Assembly: GCA_021324295.1 (NCBI GenBank)
Contig: JAJPJJ010000069.1
Span: 1-47,920, forward strand
From: Bacillota bacterium
Lineage (GTDB): Bacteria > Sysuimicrobiota > Sysuimicrobiia > Sysuimicrobiales > Segetimicrobiaceae
Reading direction: 5' to 3'
DNA length: 47,920 nt
The notes under the pieces: generated by a model
What the model saw: only the letters and a program-made list of their open reading frames with translations
What the model was told of the DNA's origin: nothing
Database searches by the model: none
Translations under genes and position numbers: made by a program
Part shown: piece by piece, positions 38,035-47,920 of the stretch
Layout: each line of letters begins with the position of its first letter
Numbering within the stretch: the stretch's first letter is position 1

Positions 38035-38093
38035 GGTGACATGCCCGCCGCGCGACAAGGCTTCTCGCCCCGCTCCCTCGAATGAGGTCTAAA

Positions 38094-38107
38094 CCGTCCC
38101 GGGACGG
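38094..38107. promoter_or_regulatory. Palindrome upstream of the muramidase gene
   Basis: CCGTCCCGGGACGG is a perfect 14-bp palindrome 58 nt before ATG 38166. It could be an operator or part of a leader hairpin; nothing in the sequence decides. Confidence 0.35.
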
Positions 38108-38165
38108 CCCATACATACGGATGACGCGCACCGACGCCACCACACCTGCAGCAGGGGGACGACAG

Positions 38166-39431
38166 ATGCACGCGCTCGCCCGGCGGCTGGCTGCCGCGCT
38201 CGCGTTGCTGCTCCTCGGACCGATCACCGCCTCCTCCCAGCAGGCCCCGCCCACGCCGGCGGAGCCGACCGGCCGCGTGCGCACCGGCCTCGAGGTGTTC
38301 CTCCAGAGCCCGCCGGAGGCGCTCCGCGGCAAGCGCATCGGCCTGATCACGAACCCCACCGGGGTGGACGCCGACCTCCGCAGCGACGTCGATCTGCTGG
38401 CGGCGCGGCAGGACGTGCGCCTCGTCGCGCTGTTCGGGCCGGAGCACGGCGTGCGGGGCGATGCCGGCGCCGGGAGCGACGTGGCGAACGGCAGGGATCC
38501 CAAGACCGGCCTGCCCGTCTACAGCCTCTACGGCGCGACCCGGAAGCCCACGCCGGCGATGCTGCGGGGGCTCGACGCGCTGGTGTTCGACATCCAGGAC
38601 GTGGGGGCGCGGTTCTACACGTACACCTCCACGCTCGCGCTGGCGATGCAGGCCGCCGCCGCGGCCGGCATCCCGTTCGTGGTCCTCGACAGGCCCAACC
38701 CGCTCGGAGGCCAGATGGTCGCCGGCCCCGTGCTCGACCCCCGGTGGAGCTCGTTCATCGGGATGTACCCGATCTCGATCGTGCACGGGATGACGATCGG
38801 GGAGCTCGCCGGGATGTTCAACGAGGAGTACCGCATCGGCGCGCGGCTGCTCGTGGTCCGCATGGAGGGGTGGCACCGGTCGATGTGGTTCGACGCCACC
38901 GGCCTCCCGTGGGTGATGACCTCGCCGGGGATCCCCCACTTCGAGACCGCGGTGCTCTACCCGGCGATGGGGCCCATCGGGGACACGAACCTGTCGGTGG
39001 GCGTGCTGACGACGAAGCCGTTCGAGTTCGTGGGAGCCACCTTCATCCAGCCCTGGCGGCTGCGCGAGGCGCTGGCAGCGCGTCACCTCGGCGGCGTGGC
39101 GTTCCGCGAGGTCTACTGGCGGGGGGAGCCCTGGACATCCTCAGGAGGGCCGGAGTACGGGGGCGTCGAGGTCCGGGTCACCGACCGCAGCGCGTACCGC
39201 CCGGTGGACCTCTGCCTGCAGATCCTGGACGTGGTCCACCGCCTCTACCCCGGCCGGTTCCGCTGGGGGCCGAGGTGGGGCGACCGCTACGTCTTCGACA
39301 TCGACATGGGCACCGACCGGGTCCGGCGGGGCATCATGGCCGGGAAGTCGCCGCGGCAGATCGAAGAGGAATGGCAGCCCGCCCTGGCCCGGTTCCTCCA
39401 GGTCCGGGAGAGGTACCTGCTGTACCACTGA
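38166..39431 (+). CDS. DUF1343 protein, NamZ-like exo-beta-N-acetylmuramidase
   Basis: A 421-residue exported protein with a signal peptide (MHALARRLAAALALLLLGPI, then TASSQQ). The DUF1343 signature is clear: GKRIGLITNPTGVDADLRSD, LVALFGPEHGVRGDAGAG, PVYSLYGATRKPTPAMLRGL, LVFDIQDVGARFYTYTSTL, VVLDRPNPLGGQMVAGPVLD and TTKPFEFVGATFIQPWRL. Members related to Bacillus NamZ (glycoside hydrolase family 171) remove terminal MurNAc from peptidoglycan fragments, which suggests wall recycling here. The conserved N-P-T-G and G-P-E-H-G blocks are intact. ATG 38166 has AGGGGG upstream; the in-frame ATG at 38082 is less likely. Confidence 0.9.
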   Translation: MHALARRLAAALALLLLGPITASSQQAPPTPAEPTGRVRTGLEVFLQSPPEALRGKRIGLITNPTGVDADLRSDVDLLAARQDVRLVALFGPEHGVRGDAGAGSDVANGRDPKTGLPVYSLYGATRKPTPAMLRGLDALVFDIQDVGARFYTYTSTLALAMQAAAAAGIPFVVLDRPNPLGGQMVAGPVLDPRWSSFIGMYPISIVHGMTIGELAGMFNEEYRIGARLLVVRMEGWHRSMWFDATGLPWVMTSPGIPHFETAVLYPAMGPIGDTNLSVGVLTTKPFEFVGATFIQPWRLREALAARHLGGVAFREVYWRGEPWTSSGGPEYGGVEVRVTDRSAYRPVDLCLQILDVVHRLYPGRFRWGPRWGDRYVFDIDMGTDRVRRGIMAGKSPRQIEEEWQPALARFLQVRERYLLYH

Positions 39432-39759: not shown

Positions 39760-41061
39760 ATGGCGGACTACCTCACCTCGAACCCGCATGGGTGCGCGTC
39801 CGGGATCGCGGAGCGCGGGGCGCCAGCGGAGTCCCGTGCCCGGGCCGGGCCGCCGGCCGCGGTCTCGCCCGCCTGGGGCGCGGTCATCCGCGGCTGCATC
39901 ATGCTGGTCCTGGGCCCCTATATGCACGCGGCGTACCGCATCCGGGGGTGGGGACGCCTCCCGTTCCGGCGTGGCCCCACGCTGGTCGTCTCCAACCATC
40001 TTCACGACCTCGATATCGTGACGCTCGCGCTGCGCCTCTCCCTCCGAGGGCCGTGGCGCCATCCGGTCTTCATCGCTGCCCGACGACGACACTTCGAGCC
40101 CGGGTTCATGGCGACGCGAGCGCCGCGCCTGGAGCGGTGGCTGCGCCGGTCCGATTGGTCCTCCTTCTTCCGGCTCCTCGGGATGCTGCCGATCGAGAGC
40201 GACCTGCGGACGCGTCCGATCGCGAGCTGGGCGTGGTCGGTGTCCAGCACGCACGGCGACCTGCGCATCGCCGAGGTCTTCGAGGATGCTGCTCGCCAGG
40301 TCCTGGGGATCGACCGGACGGATGCGCTGCTCAGCGACGTCTTCGCCTCCCCGCTCTTCCGGCGGGCGCAGGCGCGGATCGGGCTCGAGGCCCTGCGGGA
40401 GCCCTATCGCACCGAGGTGTGGCGCCACACGCGCCGGCAGATCGAGGAAGACCTCGCCCTCCTGCAGGACGTGGTCCGCTCGGGCGGGACGCTGCTCATC
40501 ACGCCCGAAGGGGCCTGCAGCCCGGACGGCCGGCTCCAGCGGCTCCGGGCTGCGCTGTGGCGGCTGCTCCCCCTGGGCCGCGTGTACCTCGCCCCGATCA
40601 GCTATGACCCGTTCGTCGGCCGGCGCCTGTCGATCCTGTACCGCGTGCTCCCGGCACCGGAGGGTACGGATGTCGCCACCGCCCTGAGCGCTGCCCGCCC
40701 TGTGACGACCAGCCAAGTCGTCGCTCGATGGGTCTCGGGGATGGATCCGGGCGAGGCGTTCTCCGCCGTGGACTTGGCCCAGGCCGCGTCCGCGCAGGTC
40801 GCGTCGCTGCGCGGACACGCGTTCGTCGACCCGCTCCTCTGCCGCCATCCCTCGCGAATGACCGCCGCGGCGCTCGCCGGCCTCGTCCGCATCGGCGTGC
40901 TCCGGCCGGAGCGCGGACGGTACGTGCTCCGCGGCCGCCGGGCGCACCCGAAGTTTCCCTGGGTGACGGATATCATCGCGCACCAGGCCAACCTCATCGC
41001 CGAGACGTGCGACGCGCTCACCGCAGTGACGCCGGGCGTGGCGGCGGGTGGACGGAGTTAG
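39760..41061 (+). CDS. PlsC-like acyltransferase (LPLAT family)
   Basis: A 433-residue protein. A hydrophobic segment (~42-58, GAVIRGCIMLVLGPYMHAAY) precedes the LPLAT catalytic motif LVVSNHLHDLDIVTL, which carries the H-x4-D dyad. The glycerol-phosphate-binding motif appears much later as LLITPEGACSPDG (cf. F-P-E-G-T-R-S). The ~130-residue insertion between them and the ~150-residue C-terminal region (DVATALSAARPVTTSQVVAR onward) are longer than classical PlsC, so the acceptor may not be lysophosphatidic acid. It precedes the hopanoid operon by 191 nt and may supply membrane lipids alongside it. Confidence 0.75.
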   Translation: MADYLTSNPHGCASGIAERGAPAESRARAGPPAAVSPAWGAVIRGCIMLVLGPYMHAAYRIRGWGRLPFRRGPTLVVSNHLHDLDIVTLALRLSLRGPWRHPVFIAARRRHFEPGFMATRAPRLERWLRRSDWSSFFRLLGMLPIESDLRTRPIASWAWSVSSTHGDLRIAEVFEDAARQVLGIDRTDALLSDVFASPLFRRAQARIGLEALREPYRTEVWRHTRRQIEEDLALLQDVVRSGGTLLITPEGACSPDGRLQRLRAALWRLLPLGRVYLAPISYDPFVGRRLSILYRVLPAPEGTDVATALSAARPVTTSQVVARWVSGMDPGEAFSAVDLAQAASAQVASLRGHAFVDPLLCRHPSRMTAAALAGLVRIGVLRPERGRYVLRGRRAHPKFPWVTDIIAHQANLIAETCDALTAVTPGVAAGGRS

Positions 41062-41252: not shown

Positions 41253-42791
41253 ATGTGGGGAGCGGATCTCGGCCACCGCATTGAAGGAAGCGGCCACTGC
41301 CCACCCCTCGCCGGGGGTGGCATAGCGTCCCGGAAGGCCGACCACGTCCGCATCAACCTCGAGGAAGACGTCGGGGCGAAGGGGGTCGCCAGCGGCTTCG
41401 AGGACTACTATTTTCTCCACTGCGCCCTCCCCGAGCTGGACCTGGACCAGGTGGACCCGTCGACCGAGCTCTTTGGCCGGCGGCTCGCCGCCCCGCTGCT
41501 GATCTCCTGCATGGTCGGCGGCACAGAGCAGGCCGCCTCCATCAACCGCCTCCTCGCGCAGGTCGCCCAGGAACTGGGGCTGGCGATGGGGCTCGGGTCC
41601 GGGCGCATCCTGCTGGAGCGGCCCTCGGTCCTCAAGACCTTCGACGTCCGCCCCGTCGCCCCGGACATCCTGCTCTTCGCCAACCTGGGTGCGGTGCAGC
41701 TCAACAAGGGCTACGGGGTCGAGGAGTGCCGGCGGCTCGTCGACGCGCTCGGCGCGGATGCGCTCGTACTGCACCTCAACGCGCTCCAGGAGGCGGTGCA
41801 GCCGGAAGGCGATACCTGCTTTGCCGGGCTGCTGGGCAAGATCGGCGAGCTCTGCCGCCGGCTCGAGGTGCCCGTCATCGTGAAGGAGGTCGGGTGGGGC
41901 ATCGCCCCGGACGTGGCCCGGTCTCTCGCCGCTGCCGGCGTGGCGGCGGTGGACGTCGCGGGCGCCGGGGGCACGTCGTGGACCGAAGTGGAGCGCCGGA
42001 GGATCTCCGAGCCCTGGCGGGCGCGCGTCGCGGCGGCGTTCGCCGGGTGGGGTATCCCCACCGCTGAGTGCGTCCGGCACGCCGTGCGCGCGGCCCCGGG
42101 GATCCGCATCTTCGCGAGCGGCGGCGTGCGCAACGGGGTCGATGCCGCGAAGGCGATCGCGCTGGGGGCGGAGCTCGTCGGGATCGCGGGGCCGTTCCTG
42201 CGCGCGGCGGCCGCCGGCCGGGAGGCCGCCCGGGAGCTCGGCCGGGAGTTCACCGAGACGCTGCGGATCGCGATGTTCAGCCTGGGGGCTCGCACGCTCG
42301 CCGACCTCCGGTTCAGCCCCCGGCTGCGCCGACGGGACGAGGATCTCGGCGAGCCCCCGATCGCGCGGCTGACGTACCGCACCGGCGGCGCGGGTCAGTT
42401 CCTCGACATCACCGACGACGTCTCCGCCGTCGTACGCTCGTCGGGGGTGCGCCGGGGGCTCGTCCACGTCTACTCGGCCCATACGACCGCGGCGGTCCGC
42501 ATCAACGAGAACGAGCAGTTCCTCCTCCAGGACTTCCGGCGCTTCCTCGACCGGATCGCGCCGGCCGGGGCGGGCGCGTACGAGCACGACGACATCGCGC
42601 GACGCGTCGACGTCCCGCCGGACGAGCCGATGAACGGCCACTCCCACTGCCAGCACCTGGTGCTGTCATCGAGCGAAACCGTGCCCATCGTGGATGGCGA
42701 GTTGGAGCTCGGCCGGTGGCAGCGCATCTTCCTCGTGGAGCTGTGCGCCGCCCGGGAGCGGCGCGTAATCGTCCAGGTCCTGGGACGGTGA
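41253..42791 (+). CDS. fni: Fusion: type 2 isopentenyl-diphosphate isomerase + YjbQ/UPF0047 domain
   Basis: A 512-residue single reading frame. Residues ~26-358 are FMN-dependent IDI-2: RKADHVRINLEEDVGAKGV, SCMVGGTEQAASINR, HLNALQEAVQPEGD (substrate/Mg residues), DVAGAGGTSWTEVE and FASGGVRNGVDAAKAI. Residues ~371-512 are a complete YjbQ/UPF0047 domain: GGAGQFLDITDDV, LVHVYSAHTTAAVRINENE, MNGHSHCQHLVLSSS and LGRWQRIFLVEL. No stop or usable internal start lies at the junction (residues 359-370, RRRDEDLGEPPI). IDI-2 interconverts IPP and DMAPP; YjbQ proteins are reported to have side thiamine-phosphate-synthase activity but their role is unclear. The first ~25 residues are unrelated to known IDI-2, and the ATG 41253 lacks a good RBS. 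hpnC follows with a GTGA overlap. Confidence 0.92.
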   Translation: MWGADLGHRIEGSGHCPPLAGGGIASRKADHVRINLEEDVGAKGVASGFEDYYFLHCALPELDLDQVDPSTELFGRRLAAPLLISCMVGGTEQAASINRLLAQVAQELGLAMGLGSGRILLERPSVLKTFDVRPVAPDILLFANLGAVQLNKGYGVEECRRLVDALGADALVLHLNALQEAVQPEGDTCFAGLLGKIGELCRRLEVPVIVKEVGWGIAPDVARSLAAAGVAAVDVAGAGGTSWTEVERRRISEPWRARVAAAFAGWGIPTAECVRHAVRAAPGIRIFASGGVRNGVDAAKAIALGAELVGIAGPFLRAAAAGREAARELGREFTETLRIAMFSLGARTLADLRFSPRLRRRDEDLGEPPIARLTYRTGGAGQFLDITDDVSAVVRSSGVRRGLVHVYSAHTTAAVRINENEQFLLQDFRRFLDRIAPAGAGAYEHDDIARRVDVPPDEPMNGHSHCQHLVLSSSETVPIVDGELELGRWQRIFLVELCAARERRVIVQVLGR

Positions 42792-43636
42792 CGACGCCGC
42801 CGGACGTCAGCGCTGCGGACGCGTACTGCTGGCGCCTCGCGTGCCGGCACTACGAGAACTTCACCGTCGCCGCCGGGTTCGTCCGCGGCCGGCTCCGCCG
42901 GGACCTGGCCCGCGTCTACGCGTACTGCCGCACCACCGATGACCTCGGTGACGAGAGCGGGACGGCCGCCCGCGCGCGGCTCGAGCGCTGGCGGGAGGAG
43001 GTCCTCGAGCTGTTCGCGGGCCGGCGACCCGCGCACCCCGTGCTGCTCGCCGTCCGGGACACGATCGCCCACTACCGACTCCCGCCGGAGCCGTTCCTCG
43101 ACCTCATCCAGGCCAACGTCCAGGATCAGGAGGTCTCGCGCTACGCGACCTGGCCGGAGCTGCGGGCGTACTGCATGCTGTCCGCCGCCCCCGTGGGCCG
43201 CATCGTGCTCCGCCTCTTCGGGATCGCCGACCCGGGGGCGACGCCCCTGTCCGACGACGTGTGCATCGGCCTCCAGCTCGCCAACTTCGCGCAGGACGTG
43301 AGCGTGGACGCCGCCAAGGGCAGGACGTACCTGCTCCAGGCAGACCTGGACGCCGGGGGCACCGCGGCCGCGACGCGCGCCCACTGCGAGCGGGCGCGGA
43401 CGCTGCTCGCGTCCGGACGCCGGCTGGAGGCGATGGCCCCGTGGCCGCTGCGGCTCCAGCTCGCCCTCTACCGCCTGGGGGGCCTCGCGATCATCGATGC
43501 GATCGCGCGGCTCGGGTACCGCACGGAGCTCCAGCGCCCGCGCGTCTCCACGTCGGCGAAGCTGCTCGTGCTCGCGCGGGCGGCCCGGCAGTCGCTAGAG
43601 AGGAATGGCGATGCCCGCACTGCGGAGATCGCGTGA
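42788..43636 (+). CDS. hpnC: Hydroxysqualene synthase HpnC
   Basis: HpnC converts presqualene diphosphate to hydroxysqualene. The 282-residue protein is of the squalene/phytoene synthase fold: ACRHYENFTVAAGFVRGRLR, the first Asp-rich motif VYAYCRTTDDLGDES, NVQDQEVSRYATWPELRAYC, and LQLANFAQDVSVDAAKGRTY, where the second Asp motif is QDVSVD (canonical D-x-x-x-D). Y-E-N-F near the start separates HpnC from HpnD. GTG 42788 overlaps the isomerase stop; a 282-residue length is normal. Confidence 0.93.
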   Translation: MTTPPDVSAADAYCWRLACRHYENFTVAAGFVRGRLRRDLARVYAYCRTTDDLGDESGTAARARLERWREEVLELFAGRRPAHPVLLAVRDTIAHYRLPPEPFLDLIQANVQDQEVSRYATWPELRAYCMLSAAPVGRIVLRLFGIADPGATPLSDDVCIGLQLANFAQDVSVDAAKGRTYLLQADLDAGGTAAATRAHCERARTLLASGRRLEAMAPWPLRLQLALYRLGGLAIIDAIARLGYRTELQRPRVSTSAKLLVLARAARQSLERNGDARTAEIA

Positions 43637-43646
43637 GGAGACCGCC

Positions 43647-44519
43647 GTGTCCAACGACGCTGCCGTACCCACCGTGCTCGACCTGCGGGAGTCCGAGGGG
43701 TTCTGCCAGCGCATGGCCCGCCGCGAGGCGAGGAACTTCTACTGGGGGTTCATCACCCTTCCCCGCGAGGAGCGGGTGGCGATCTACGCCCTCTACGGCT
43801 TCGCGCGCCAGGTCGACGACGAGGCCGACCGGGCGGGGATCGCCCGCCTGCCCGAGCGCCTGGCGGCCCACCGGGAGCGCGTCCGCCGCTGCATGCGGGG
43901 CGAGTACTCCGACCCGGTGATGCAGGTCCTGGCCCACGCGGTGCGCCGCTACGCGATCCCGGAGTCGGAGCTGCAGGCCGTGATCGACGGCGTGGAGATG
44001 GACTTCTACCGGACGCGATACCAAACGTGGGAGGAGCTGCAGCGCTACTTCCGGCTGGTGGCGTCCGTGATCGGTCGGCTGTGCGTCCGTGTCTTTGGCT
44101 TCACCGATCCTGCGGCCTTCGACCGGGCCGACGAGCTGGGTCTCGCGATGCAGCTCACGAACTGTCTGCGCGATGTCCGCGAGGACGCGCAGATGGGACG
44201 CCTGTACCTGCCGCAGGAGGACCTGCAGCGGTTCGGCGTGACCGAGCAGGAGGTGCTGGACGGGTGCCCCGGGCCGGGGTGGCGGCGGCTCGTGGCGTTC
44301 GAGGCGCAGCGGGCGCGGGCCCTGTTTGCCTCGGGCCTCGACGTCGTGTCGCTGATCCCGCGCCGCCCCGCCGTGTGCGTCCGCACGATGGCCGGCATCT
44401 ACCAGCGGATCCTGGAGCGGATCGACCGGTACCCCGACCTCCCTTTCCGGGAGCGGGCCTCGCTGTCGCCGGCAGAGAAGCTGCAGGTCGTACTGGAGTC
44501 GTGGCTGAGCATCGCGTAG
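43647..44519 (+). CDS. hpnD: Presqualene diphosphate synthase HpnD
   Basis: HpnD condenses two farnesyl diphosphates to presqualene diphosphate. The 290 residues include NFYWGFITLPREERVAIYAL, Asp-rich motif I ARQVDDEADR, GVEMDFYRTRYQTWEELQRY and motif II AMQLTNCLRDVREDAQMGRL followed by YLPQEDL, all diagnostic. GTG 43647 is preceded by GAGGAG with 6-nt spacing; ATG 43605 or 43611, inside the end of hpnC, would add 12-14 residues. Overlaps hpnE by 19 nt. Confidence 0.93.
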   Translation: MSNDAAVPTVLDLRESEGFCQRMARREARNFYWGFITLPREERVAIYALYGFARQVDDEADRAGIARLPERLAAHRERVRRCMRGEYSDPVMQVLAHAVRRYAIPESELQAVIDGVEMDFYRTRYQTWEELQRYFRLVASVIGRLCVRVFGFTDPAAFDRADELGLAMQLTNCLRDVREDAQMGRLYLPQEDLQRFGVTEQEVLDGCPGPGWRRLVAFEAQRARALFASGLDVVSLIPRRPAVCVRTMAGIYQRILERIDRYPDLPFRERASLSPAEKLQVVLESWLSIA

Positions 44520-45793
44520 CGGTCGTGGGGGCCGGACTGGCCGGCCTCGCCGCCGCGGTGGACCTCGCGGCGGCGGGGTGCGCGGTCACGCTGTTCGAGC
44601 GGAGCCGGCTCCTCGGCGGCCGGGCGACGTCGTTCCAGGTGGACGGCGTCGAGGTCGACAACGGCCAGCACGTCTTCCTGGCCTGCTTTACGGAGTTCAT
44701 CGCGTTCGCCCACCGGCTCGGCATGGGCGGCTCCCTGCGCCTGCAGGACCGGTTCGACGTCCTCGCCCTGTCGCGCCGCGGGGTCGCCAGCCGCCTCCGC
44801 ACGGCCGCGCTGCCCGCTCCCTGGCACCTGCTCGTATCGTTCCTCGCGTACCGGCACCTCGGGTGGGGTGCGAAGCTCGACGTGGCGCGGGCCCTGGCGC
44901 GCGCGCGCGAGGCGCGGACGGCCAGCGGGACGTTCGGCGAGTGGCTGGCCCGCCTGGGCCAGCGCGAGGAGGCGCTCCGCGGCTTCTGGCGGCCGCTCTT
45001 CGTGCCCGCGCTCAACGCGCCGCTGGATCGGGTCAGCGCGGTGGACGCGGCGTTCGTGCTCCTCACGGCGTTCCTGGAGGACCGGGGCGCGGCGCGGCTG
45101 GGATACGCGACGGTGCCGCTGGCCCGCCTCGCCGAGGCGGCCGCGGCCCGCCTGGGGAGCGCGCGCCTGTCCACGCCGGTCGTCGGGCTCGAGGTGCCCT
45201 CGGACGATCGGGCGGTGCTCGTGCTGGACGGCGGCGAGCGCGTCACGGTCGAGGCCGTGGTGGCGGCTGTGCCGCCGCCGCAGCTCGCCCGGATTCTCGG
45301 CCGCGCGGACCGGTACGGGCTGCCCCCGCTCGAGGGCTACGAGCCGCGTCCCATCGTGGACGTCCACCTGTGGCACGACCGGGGCTCGCTCGGGTTCGAC
45401 CTCGCCGCCCTGCTCGATTCCCCGGTGCAGTGGGTCTTCGAGAAGGCGCCGGGGTACCTGTGCTGCAGCCTCAGCGCGGCGGACCGCCACATCCGCCAGC
45501 CAACCGCGGAGCTGGTGCGGCTCTGCTGGGACGAGGTGACCGGCGCGATCCCACCGCTCGCGCGGGCGACCCTGGTGCGGGGTGCGGCGACCCGGAGCCC
45601 GGAGGCCACGTTCCTGGCGCCCGCGGGTGCGAGACGACCCGGTCCGGCCACGCTGCGCCCGAACCTGGCGATCGCCGGCTCCTGGACGGACACGGGATGG
45701 CCGGACACGCTGGAGTCGGCGGTGCGCAGCGGCCGGGCGGCGGCGGCCCACCTGCTGCGCTCGCTCGGGAGGACCCCATGCGCGACGCGCTGA
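44501..45793 (+). CDS. hpnE: Hydroxysqualene dehydroxylase HpnE
   Basis: HpnE is an FAD-dependent amine-oxidase-fold enzyme that reduces hydroxysqualene to squalene. The 430 residues start VAEHRVAVVGAGLAGLAAAV (dinucleotide fold), then TLFERSRLLGGRATSFQVDG and VEVDNGQHVFLACFTEFIAF. Later HpnE-type motifs are FWRPLFVPALNAPLDRVSAV and, at the C-terminus, LAIAGSWTDTGWPDTLESAV (FAD contact). GTG 44501 lies within the end of hpnD; a start at later GTGs would cut into the Rossmann fold. Overlaps the cyclase by 16 nt. Confidence 0.92.
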   Translation: MAEHRVAVVGAGLAGLAAAVDLAAAGCAVTLFERSRLLGGRATSFQVDGVEVDNGQHVFLACFTEFIAFAHRLGMGGSLRLQDRFDVLALSRRGVASRLRTAALPAPWHLLVSFLAYRHLGWGAKLDVARALARAREARTASGTFGEWLARLGQREEALRGFWRPLFVPALNAPLDRVSAVDAAFVLLTAFLEDRGAARLGYATVPLARLAEAAAARLGSARLSTPVVGLEVPSDDRAVLVLDGGERVTVEAVVAAVPPPQLARILGRADRYGLPPLEGYEPRPIVDVHLWHDRGSLGFDLAALLDSPVQWVFEKAPGYLCCSLSAADRHIRQPTAELVRLCWDEVTGAIPPLARATLVRGAATRSPEATFLAPAGARRPGPATLRPNLAIAGSWTDTGWPDTLESAVRSGRAAAAHLLRSLGRTPCATR

Positions 45794-47709
45794 CGCCCGC
45801 GGTAGGGTGGCTGCTCGACCACCAGCATCCGGATGGGTGGTGGGTGGGCGAGCTCGAGACCAACGTGACGATGACCGCCGAGCACGTGCTCCTCCTGCGA
45901 TTTCTCGGCGTCGACCCCGAGCCGATCCGGGCGGGCGCGGTCCGCCACATCCTGGGGGCCCAGCGGGACGATGGGTCCTGGGCGCTGTACCACGACGGCC
46001 CCGCGGATCTCAGCACCACCATCGAGGCGTACGCGGCGCTGCGGGTCCTCGGGGTGGACCCGTCCGCTCCCCCGATGCGGGCGGCGCTTGCGGTGATCCG
46101 CGCGCTCGGCGGCGTGGCGCACGCGCGCGTCTTCACGAAGATCTGGCTCGCGCTCTTCGGCCAGTACCCGTGGAGCGGCATCCCGACCGTGCCGCCGGAG
46201 ATCGTCTACCTGCCGCCGTGGGCGCCGTTCAACCTGTACGACTTTGCCTGCTGGGCCCGGGGAACGATCGCGCCCATGACGATCGTGCTGTCCCGCAGGC
46301 CGGTGCGCCCGCTCGGGGTCGACCTCCCGGAGCTCGTGCTGGAGGGGACCGAGCGCGCCCTCACCCGCGTGCCCGGCGCCGGACCGCTGTGGTGGGCTGA
46401 CCAGCTGCTTCGCCTCTACGAGCGCCTGCCCTGGAAGCCGGGCCGGGGCCGCGCCCGGCGCCGGCTCGTGGACTGGATCGTCCAGCACCAGGAGGCCGAC
46501 GGGAGCTGGGGCGGGATCCAGCCGCCCTGGGTGTACTCGCTGATCGCGCTCAACCTCGAGGGGATGCGCCTGGACCATCCGGTGATGCGCAAGGGGCTCG
46601 CAGGCCTCGACCGGTTCGCGCTCGCGGACGAGAAGGGGTGGCGGCTGCAGGCCTGCATGTCGCCGGTGTGGGACACCGCCTGGGCCCTCCGCGCCCTCGC
46701 GGCGGCGGGGCTCGGCCCGGAGCACCCGGCGGTCCGGCGGGCGGTGCGCTGGCTGCTGCGCGAGCAGATCACGGTCCCCGGGGACTGGTGCGTCCGCTGC
46801 CGGGGCGTCCCGTGCGGCGGCTGGGCCTTCGAGTTCGACAACGACCTCTACCCGGACATCGACGACACGGCGGTCGTCGTGGTCGCGTTGTGGGAAGCGC
46901 ACGCCCGCGAGGAGGCGCGCGAGGCCATCGAGCGCGCTCGCCGGTGGATCATCGCGATGCGGTCGCGCAACGGCGGCTGGGGCGCCTTCGACAAGGACAA
47001 CACGCGCGAGCTGCTCTACCGCCTGCCGTTCTGCGACTTCGGGGCGGTCATCGACCCGCCCTCCGAGGACGTCACCGCGCACTGCCTGGAGATGCTCGCC
47101 GCGATCGGCGCGGACGAGCGCGACCCGTACGTCGCCGACGGCCTGGCGTACCTGCGCCGGACGCAGACGCCGCGCGGCTCATGGTTCGGCCGCTGGGGGG
47201 TCAATCACATCTACGGGACCTGGTGCGTGCTCGACGCGCTCGCCGCCCTGCGCGCGGAGACGCTGATGGCCGAGCGGGCGGCCGCGTGGGTGCTCCGGGC
47301 GCAGAACCCCGACGGCGGGTGGGGGGAGACCTGCCACTCGTACGTGGACGAGTCCTTCGCGGGCGCCGGACGCAGCACGCCCTCGCAAACGGCGTGGGCC
47401 GTGCTGGCCCTCCAGGCGGCCGGGTTGGGCGACCACCCGGCCTGCCGGCGCGGCCTGGCGTTCCTGGGGGATACCCAAAGAGGGGGGACGTGGGAGGAGC
47501 CGGAATACACCGGCACGGGCTTCCCGCGCGACTTCTACATCAACTACCATCTCTATCGTCACGTGTTTCCGACGCTCGCGCTGGCCCGGGCGCGGCGCCG
47601 GGACGTCGCCGGCGCGCCGGCGGAGCGGCCCGAGGCCGCCCGCCCCGGCGCCGCCCTGGCGCGAGGTGCCGGGCCGGGGACACCGGCTCCCCCGGGCGGG
47701 CGCTCCTGA
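45778..47709 (+). CDS. shc: Squalene-hopene cyclase
   Basis: The membrane-associated terpene cyclase that folds squalene into hopene. The 643 residues include the catalytic DIDD motif (360-363, in [18 protein letters not shown]), several QW repeats such as [45 protein letters not shown] and [20 protein letters not shown], and the conserved [13 protein letters not shown] 45778 has GGGAGGA upstream. The C-terminal ~50 residues after [20 protein letters not shown] are Ala/Pro/Arg-rich and not part of the family. It sits between hpnE and hpnH, as in typical hopanoid operons. Confidence 0.96.
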
Positions 47710-47764: not shown

Positions 47765-47920
47765 ATGGGCGTCCCGCTGCGGCAGAAGCTGACCGTCGGG
47801 GCCTACGTGCTCCGGAACCGGCTGCGGGGCCGGGAGAAGTTCCCGCTCGTGCTGCAGCTCGAGCCGCTGTTCCGCTGCAACCTCGCCTGCGCGGGATGCG
47901 GCAAGATCCAGCACCCGGAA
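47765..47920 (+). CDS. hpnH: Adenosylhopane synthase HpnH (partial, 5' end)
   Basis: The first 52 codons, running off the window. [20 protein letters not shown] then [20 protein letters not shown] and CGKIQHPE contain the radical-SAM cluster motif C-x3-C-x2-C (CNLACAGC) in the HpnH context. The enzyme joins the 5'-deoxyadenosyl group to diploptene, the first step of side-chain extension to C35 hopanoids. GGGAGG lies about 11 nt upstream of ATG 47765. It is 55 nt after the cyclase stop. Confidence 0.93.

Follow-up and report, generated by a model that had tools for sequence, protein, structure and literature searches.

In the window, the 47,920-nucleotide stretch of DNA analyzed here, the hopanoid operon begins with a gene that joins a type 2 isopentenyl-diphosphate isomerase (IDI-2) to a YjbQ/UPF0047 domain in one reading frame. 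The YjbQ part groups with YjbQ proteins that are fused to isoprenoid enzymes or encoded next to them. We infer as the best explanation, with about an even chance of being right, that the fused YjbQ is a working accessory enzyme at the node of isopentenyl and dimethylallyl diphosphate (IPP and DMAPP), probably acting on an allylic prenyl diphosphate. The features of the fusion gene and its operon, in window coordinates, are as follows.

41253–42791, forward strand: idi2-yjbQ fusion gene, 512 amino acids, ATG start
41331–42326, forward strand: type 2 isopentenyl-diphosphate isomerase domain, TIM-barrel, residues 27–358 (TIGR02151, 387.8 bits)
42327–42368, forward strand: charged linker RRRDEDLGEPPIAR, about residues 359–372, with no in-frame start codon
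42378–42785, forward strand: YjbQ/UPF0047 domain, residues 376–511 (TIGR00149, PF01894), signature NGHSHCQH at 461–468
42788–43636, forward strand: hpnC-like squalene synthase gene, GTG start (TIGR03464, 230.6 bits, under the cut-off of 250.45)
43605–44519, forward strand: hpnD, presqualene diphosphate synthase (TIGR03465, 276.6 bits, just under the cut-off of 278.6)
44516–45793, forward strand: hpnE, hydroxysqualene dehydroxylase (TIGR03467, 346.3 bits)
45784–47709, forward strand: shc, squalene-hopene cyclase (TIGR01507, 735.8 bits)
47768–47920, forward strand: putative hpnH-like radical SAM gene, 5′ part, cut by the window end

The frame from 41253 to 42791 has no internal stop in its 512 residues, and its ATG is the only canonical start in frame ahead of the conserved region. 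In profile searches the IDI-2 part exceeds the TIGR02151 cut-off of 281.3 bits and covers profile positions 2–335 of 338, and the YjbQ part (residues 376–511) scores 105.0 bits against TIGR00149 (cut-off 67.75) and 117.4 bits against PF01894 (cut-off 27). Both domains named by the first-pass annotation are therefore present in full in a single open reading frame. The IDI-2 motifs HLNxxQExxQPEGD and GGTSW are kept, this part aligns with 1VCF and 2ZRU, and the YjbQ part matches 1VE0, 2P6H, and others by sequence. The linker, already described as charged and free of start codons, lies in a wider stretch, from residue 342 to residue 385, with no ATG, GTG, or TTG in frame; it is the least conserved part of the protein (dN/dS 0.2–0.6) and is modelled as a loop. 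The predicted structure comprises a confident TIM barrel and a separate β-rich YjbQ part of lower confidence, and the best 21 Foldseek matches of the predicted fold are all IDI-2 (TM score by target 0.82–0.93). By profile and predicted fold the first domain is a type 2 IPP isomerase, for which FMN-dependent isomerization of IPP and DMAPP is predicted. It resembles the known IDI-2 proteins (TIGR02151; 1VCF, 2ZRU/3B03, 1P0K) in its full-length domain, fold, and motifs but differs from them in the C-terminal YjbQ, in standing at the head of an hpnCDE-shc operon, and in having a second, unfused IDI-2 in the same genome, 49% identical over residues 20–358. Because that genome also encodes IDI-2 and a generic YjbQ as separate proteins, the fusion is a dedicated copy that comes in addition to them.

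The TGA of the fusion gene overlaps the GTG of hpnC (GTGA), an arrangement that points to translational coupling of the fusion to hpnC-hpnD-hpnE-shc. The four downstream genes are co-directional and overlapping and follow the fusion directly, which bears out its earlier placement at the head of a hopanoid operon. HpnC and HpnD of the window lie slightly below the NCBIfam equivalog cut-offs, with their best matches in the right order, and HpnE and SHC lie well above them.

The fusion was recovered in 19 genomes from three or more phyla, one of them a complete chromosome. In the window's family, four other genomes carry it at 72–82% identity over the full length, and the order idi2yjbQ-hpnC-hpnD-hpnE-shc is constant in the fusion-bearing genomes. 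There SHC is present in all five fusion-bearing genomes versus none of the seven others. Both domains have dN/dS of about 0.12–0.25, which indicates purifying selection. Further copies come from four genomes in the phylum of G063, an Eremiobacterota record, from seven of the Chloroflexota/Dormibacterota group (one interrupted by a frameshift and another truncated where its contig ends), and from Sphaerobacter-like genomes, including a complete 2.74-Mb chromosome (G177); its presence on that chromosome makes cloning and assay feasible. Either hpnC or shc lies directly 3′ of the fusion in 16 of the 18 copies with readable downstream DNA, and the exceptions, in G061 and G779, have no adjoining hpn gene. 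Among 386 broadly sampled genomes, 40 from outside the window's phylum matched at E ≤ 1e-40; IDI-2 accounted for nearly all of these matches, and none of the 40 was fused. A scan of viral contigs also found nothing. In one genome (G750, locus L120, 7630–9149) the IDI-2 part of the fusion lies in two frames, through either an assembly error or a real frameshift. Judged from its sequence distribution, the fusion is a genuine and old architecture. The view of the two domains as usually separate proteins stands for generic YjbQ, but the fusion is not isolated, occurring in at least three phyla, and a lineage-only oddity was rejected because other phyla have it.

Many genomes of Dormibacterota, Eremiobacterota, and Chloroflexota have the same operon, which there starts with an unfused IDI-2 and contains no YjbQ gene, and in three of those with such an IDI-2 (G062, G063, and G064) a whole-genome search gave no YjbQ match. 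Because these close relatives have idi2-hpnCDE-shc operons without YjbQ, the YjbQ part is accessory and not obligatory for hopene, and a role as an obligatory step of hopene synthesis was rejected. The unfused hopanoid-operon IDI-2 copies (L048–L069) are often from cold soils (palsa, fen, bog, and Antarctica), and Centralia soil or Sphaerobacter is the source of the fused copies; YjbQ may be linked to growth temperature. IspH was found in all 22 genomes tested and HMG-CoA reductase in one, and these organisms therefore use the MEP pathway, to which IDI is an optional addition that affects flux. The single HMG-CoA reductase (G570, contig C81, 1897–3003) is in a fusion-bearing genome that also has IspH, and contamination or a dual pathway is possible.

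YjbQ is widespread in bacteria and archaea and, to our knowledge, has no settled native function. The YjbQ domains fused to IDI-2, those linked to ispH, those fused to polyprenyl synthetase, and a standalone member in G837 form a clade apart from generic YjbQ (support 98/91). The core residues His410, Asn418, Glu419, Asp427, His445, Asn461, His465, Trp489, Gln490, and Glu496 (window numbering) are identical in the 19 fused and 31 operon copies, and His410, Asp427, His445, Asn461, His465, Gly487, and Glu496 are identical across all groups compared. The clade has in addition His463 and Cys466 (NxHxHC) and mostly also His468; among 24 generic YjbQ proteins, His463 occurs in two and Cys466 in none. 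Since the core is kept and NxHxHC is added, the YjbQ domain is likely to be catalytically active, its active site being modified, and one may speculate that a metal is bound there. A degenerate YjbQ was rejected, all of the family core residues being intact. The window protein resembles the known YjbQ/UPF0047 proteins, annotated as "secondary thiamine-phosphate synthase" (TIGR00149, PF01894; 1VE0, 2P6H, 2P6C, 1VPH, 1XBF, 1VMJ), in profile and core residues. Generic YjbQ proteins are separate and have no isoprenoid linkage, whereas the window YjbQ is fused and belongs to the NxHxHC clade; it lacks the single-domain form of the known proteins, a difference of architecture and not of homology. 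We propose to delimit the clade by its supported position in the tree, NxHxHC, and linkage to ispH, IDI-2, or polyprenyl synthetase, all of which the window domain has. Outside the IDI-2 fusions, the clade occurs in the following contexts.

L110, 6555–11500, and L131–L170: hopanoid cluster ispG-shc-ispH-yjbQ-hpnC-hpnD-hpnE, phylum of G441
L123, 7034–8428: YjbQ-polyprenyl synthetase fusion
L124, 5778–7160, reverse strand: YjbQ-polyprenyl synthetase fusion
L125, 6266–7633: YjbQ-polyprenyl synthetase fusion
L191, 6209–7585: YjbQ-polyprenyl synthetase fusion
L192, 6804–8195: YjbQ-polyprenyl synthetase fusion
L193, 6077–7486: YjbQ-polyprenyl synthetase fusion

In the phylum of G441, whose genomes are small, the genes run ispG-shc-ispH-yjbQ, in many loci with hpnC-hpnD-hpnE next; where loci were read in detail, hpnH, hpnG, hpnA, and a polyprenyl synthetase gene lie 5′ of this series. 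In all 31 distinct loci yjbQ is directly 3′ of ispH, the end of which it often overlaps by a few bases, and in 10 of them it is directly 5′ of hpnC. Three loci (L161, L166, and L167) have ispH-yjbQ without shc, and L161 is also without hpn genes. The standalone yjbQ occupies the slot of the fused domain, after a DMAPP-making enzyme and before squalene synthase. Six Chloroflexota-group genomes have YjbQ joined, through its C-terminal side, to a polyprenyl synthetase (PF00348, 187–197 bits) in one frame; these fusions lie outside hopanoid clusters, and one of the genomes that carry them, G779, also has a contig-truncated IDI-2-YjbQ. In G837 a standalone YjbQ lies just 5′ of a phytoene/squalene-synthase-type (crtB-like) gene, with an amine-oxidase-type (crtI-like) desaturase gene. 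At L122 (2938–4801), a standalone IDI-2 (41% identical) and a standalone YjbQ of the clade are arranged tail to tail. Some clade members of the Chloroflexota group have no isoprenoid gene nearby, and one standalone member (L129) was seen by eye to lie near a thiE-like gene.

Among generic YjbQ genes of the phylum of G441, none of 20 adjoins ispH, shc, or hpn genes, and elsewhere one of 22 loci, viewed with short flanks only, has a weak amine-oxidase-type match. Since the clade is linked and generic YjbQ is not, the isoprenoid linkage belongs to the clade and not to YjbQ generally. Genomes with a fusion or operon copy often have a generic YjbQ elsewhere. Four of the 20 generic genes (L172, L176, L179, and L188, from two genera) are divergent beside ispG, and the hopanoid cluster of those genomes showed no ispG next to it. 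The first-pass annotation had read the fusion as a strong hint of an isoprenoid role, and the second fusion, the ispH operon, the co-occurrence with SHC, and the clade signature reinforce that reading; the mechanisms suggested with it, handling of diphosphates, channelling, or regulation of flux, are candidates. Taken together, gene order and phylogeny argue strongly that the clade very probably works in isoprenoid synthesis.

In the IDI-2 tree, unfused and fused proteins interleave, whereas the YjbQ domains fused to IDI-2 and to polyprenyl synthetase form one group (support 99/91), and the topology test does not reject a single clade for the copies fused to IDI-2 (p-AU 0.20). The simplest reading of these trees would be a single fusion event followed by losses or transfers, between which the tree, with many weak forks, has no power to discriminate. 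Repeated independent IDI-2-YjbQ fusions are not needed, given the 99/91 group and the p-AU value.

IspH makes both IPP and DMAPP, and polyprenyl diphosphate synthase uses both. The partners of the clade are IspH, polyprenyl diphosphate synthase, and IDI-2, which converts IPP to DMAPP, and they are encoded mostly inside squalene/hopanoid clusters. The C5 diphosphates IPP and DMAPP are all that the three have in common, and the proposed substrates lie at that node. The IDI-2 domain would supply DMAPP for farnesyl diphosphate (FPP), squalene, and hopene in a cell that, as IspH is present and HMG-CoA reductase was not found, appears to use the MEP pathway. The YjbQ domain may then bind prenyl diphosphates, C5 or short allylic ones, that its partner produces, a substrate class that we reason to be about as likely as not, and the fusion would place YjbQ beside the source of its substrate. 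In the reaction of thiamin phosphate synthase, diphosphate is displaced from an allylic-type carbon, as in enzymes that act on DMAPP. We know of no YjbQ with activity on a prenyl diphosphate. YjbQ of Escherichia coli is a weak thiamin phosphate synthase according to Morett 2008, as that work is cited in PMC11551756 and PMC3091646. By analogy with this activity, the most likely chemistry of the fused domain would be a substitution in which water or another nucleophile takes the place of the diphosphate; YjbQ might in this way protect or tune the DMAPP/IPP pool or yield a prenylated by-product. A bolder and rather doubtful proposal makes the clade a previously undescribed IPP/DMAPP-node enzyme, such as a hydrolase or transferase of allylic prenyl diphosphates. 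If so, this hydrolase or transferase would set the DMAPP/IPP pool from which squalene, polyprenyl compounds, and carotenoids are made, and it would reveal what type of reaction is native to YjbQ/UPF0047 as a family, with thiamin phosphate synthesis as a side reaction of the same chemistry.

The same arrangement might arise if the fused YjbQ were a non-catalytic scaffold or regulator that builds a larger assembly or senses prenyl diphosphates and controls IDI-2 flux. Its partners have oligomeric states of their own, with YjbQ crystallizing as trimers and IDI-2 forming tetramers or octamers. Several YjbQ entries have 3 or 6 chains and one IDI-2 entry is octameric, which suggests that their symmetries differ; YjbQ is, moreover, dispensable in relatives of the fusion-bearing organisms. 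We nevertheless consider a scaffold or regulator unlikely, because the family core residues are 100% intact in the fused and operon copies, purifying selection on YjbQ is as strong as on IDI-2, and the clade is found on its own, too, in a gene coupled to ispH, an arrangement for which a pure tether would have no use. Another account, also improbable, takes the fusion as a neutral outcome of co-transcription in which YjbQ keeps an ordinary housekeeping or thiamin-related job and rides on the operon. The wide occurrence of YjbQ, the thiamin phosphate synthase reaction as its sole reported activity, and the thiE-like neighbor at L129 accord with such a job, but the frequent presence of a generic YjbQ elsewhere in genomes with a fusion or operon copy speaks against it. 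So do the exact tracking of SHC by the fusion within the family and the convergence on one node of the fusion to IDI-2, the fusion to polyprenyl synthetase, and the ispH operon, which are three separate links.

Action at a later stage, on squalene, hopene, or side-chain chemistry in place of C5 diphosphates, is very improbable. The linked genes do come mostly from hopanoid clusters (hpnC–H and shc), but at L161 the pair ispH-yjbQ stands with neither shc nor hpn genes, at L166 and L167 it lacks shc, the polyprenyl synthetase fusions are apart from such clusters, and YjbQ also stands beside a phytoene-synthase-type gene. An artefact of assembly or annotation has a negligible chance of explaining the fusion: the window is from a draft genome and the G750 copy is frameshifted inside IDI-2, but 17 intact copies are known from independent genomes, one a complete chromosome. 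The stop codon or frameshift at the junction that would undo the fusion was not found, the frame being open in the window and across the junction in G177; with the architecture so conserved, an assembly artefact or missed stop was rejected. An accessory enzyme at the IPP/DMAPP node remains the reading that we prefer.

Both domains are of known families; what appears to be undescribed is the way in which they are joined, along with the second fusion and the clade linked to isoprenoids. A literature search whose scope took in few subscription journals gave no paper that connects YjbQ to isoprenoids or hopanoids and nothing relevant on YjbQ and Sphaerobacter, which is weak evidence. The two fusions and the place after ispH give one YjbQ clade a concrete pathway, with IPP, DMAPP, 4-hydroxy-3-methylbut-2-enyl diphosphate (HMBPP), geranyl diphosphate (GPP), and FPP as candidate substrates, and, if the proposed function is correct, an unrecognized accessory part is added to hopanoid synthesis. 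The window operon shares the gene content and the order of the squalene route with the hopanoid cluster hpnC-hpnD-hpnE-shc-hpnH but starts with IDI-2-YjbQ instead, and as far as we know the described hpn nomenclature includes no YjbQ. The window operon is similar to carotenoid gene clusters that contain IDI-2, for example in Pantoea, in that an IPP isomerase sits within a terpenoid cluster, where it would raise DMAPP supply; these clusters are without YjbQ, and their product is a carotenoid and not a hopanoid.

At the 3′ end of the operon, the hpnH-like fragment (47768–47920) is too short to give a profile match; its start agrees in N-terminal sequence and position with an intact open reading frame 3′ of shc in L036 (11029–12051). 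Directly 5′ of the operon, on the same strand, there is an acyltransferase-like gene (39760–41061, weak PF01553 match), and a complete gene for a NamZ-type exo-β-N-acetylmuramidase (PF07075 and PF20732) is found at 38082–39431.
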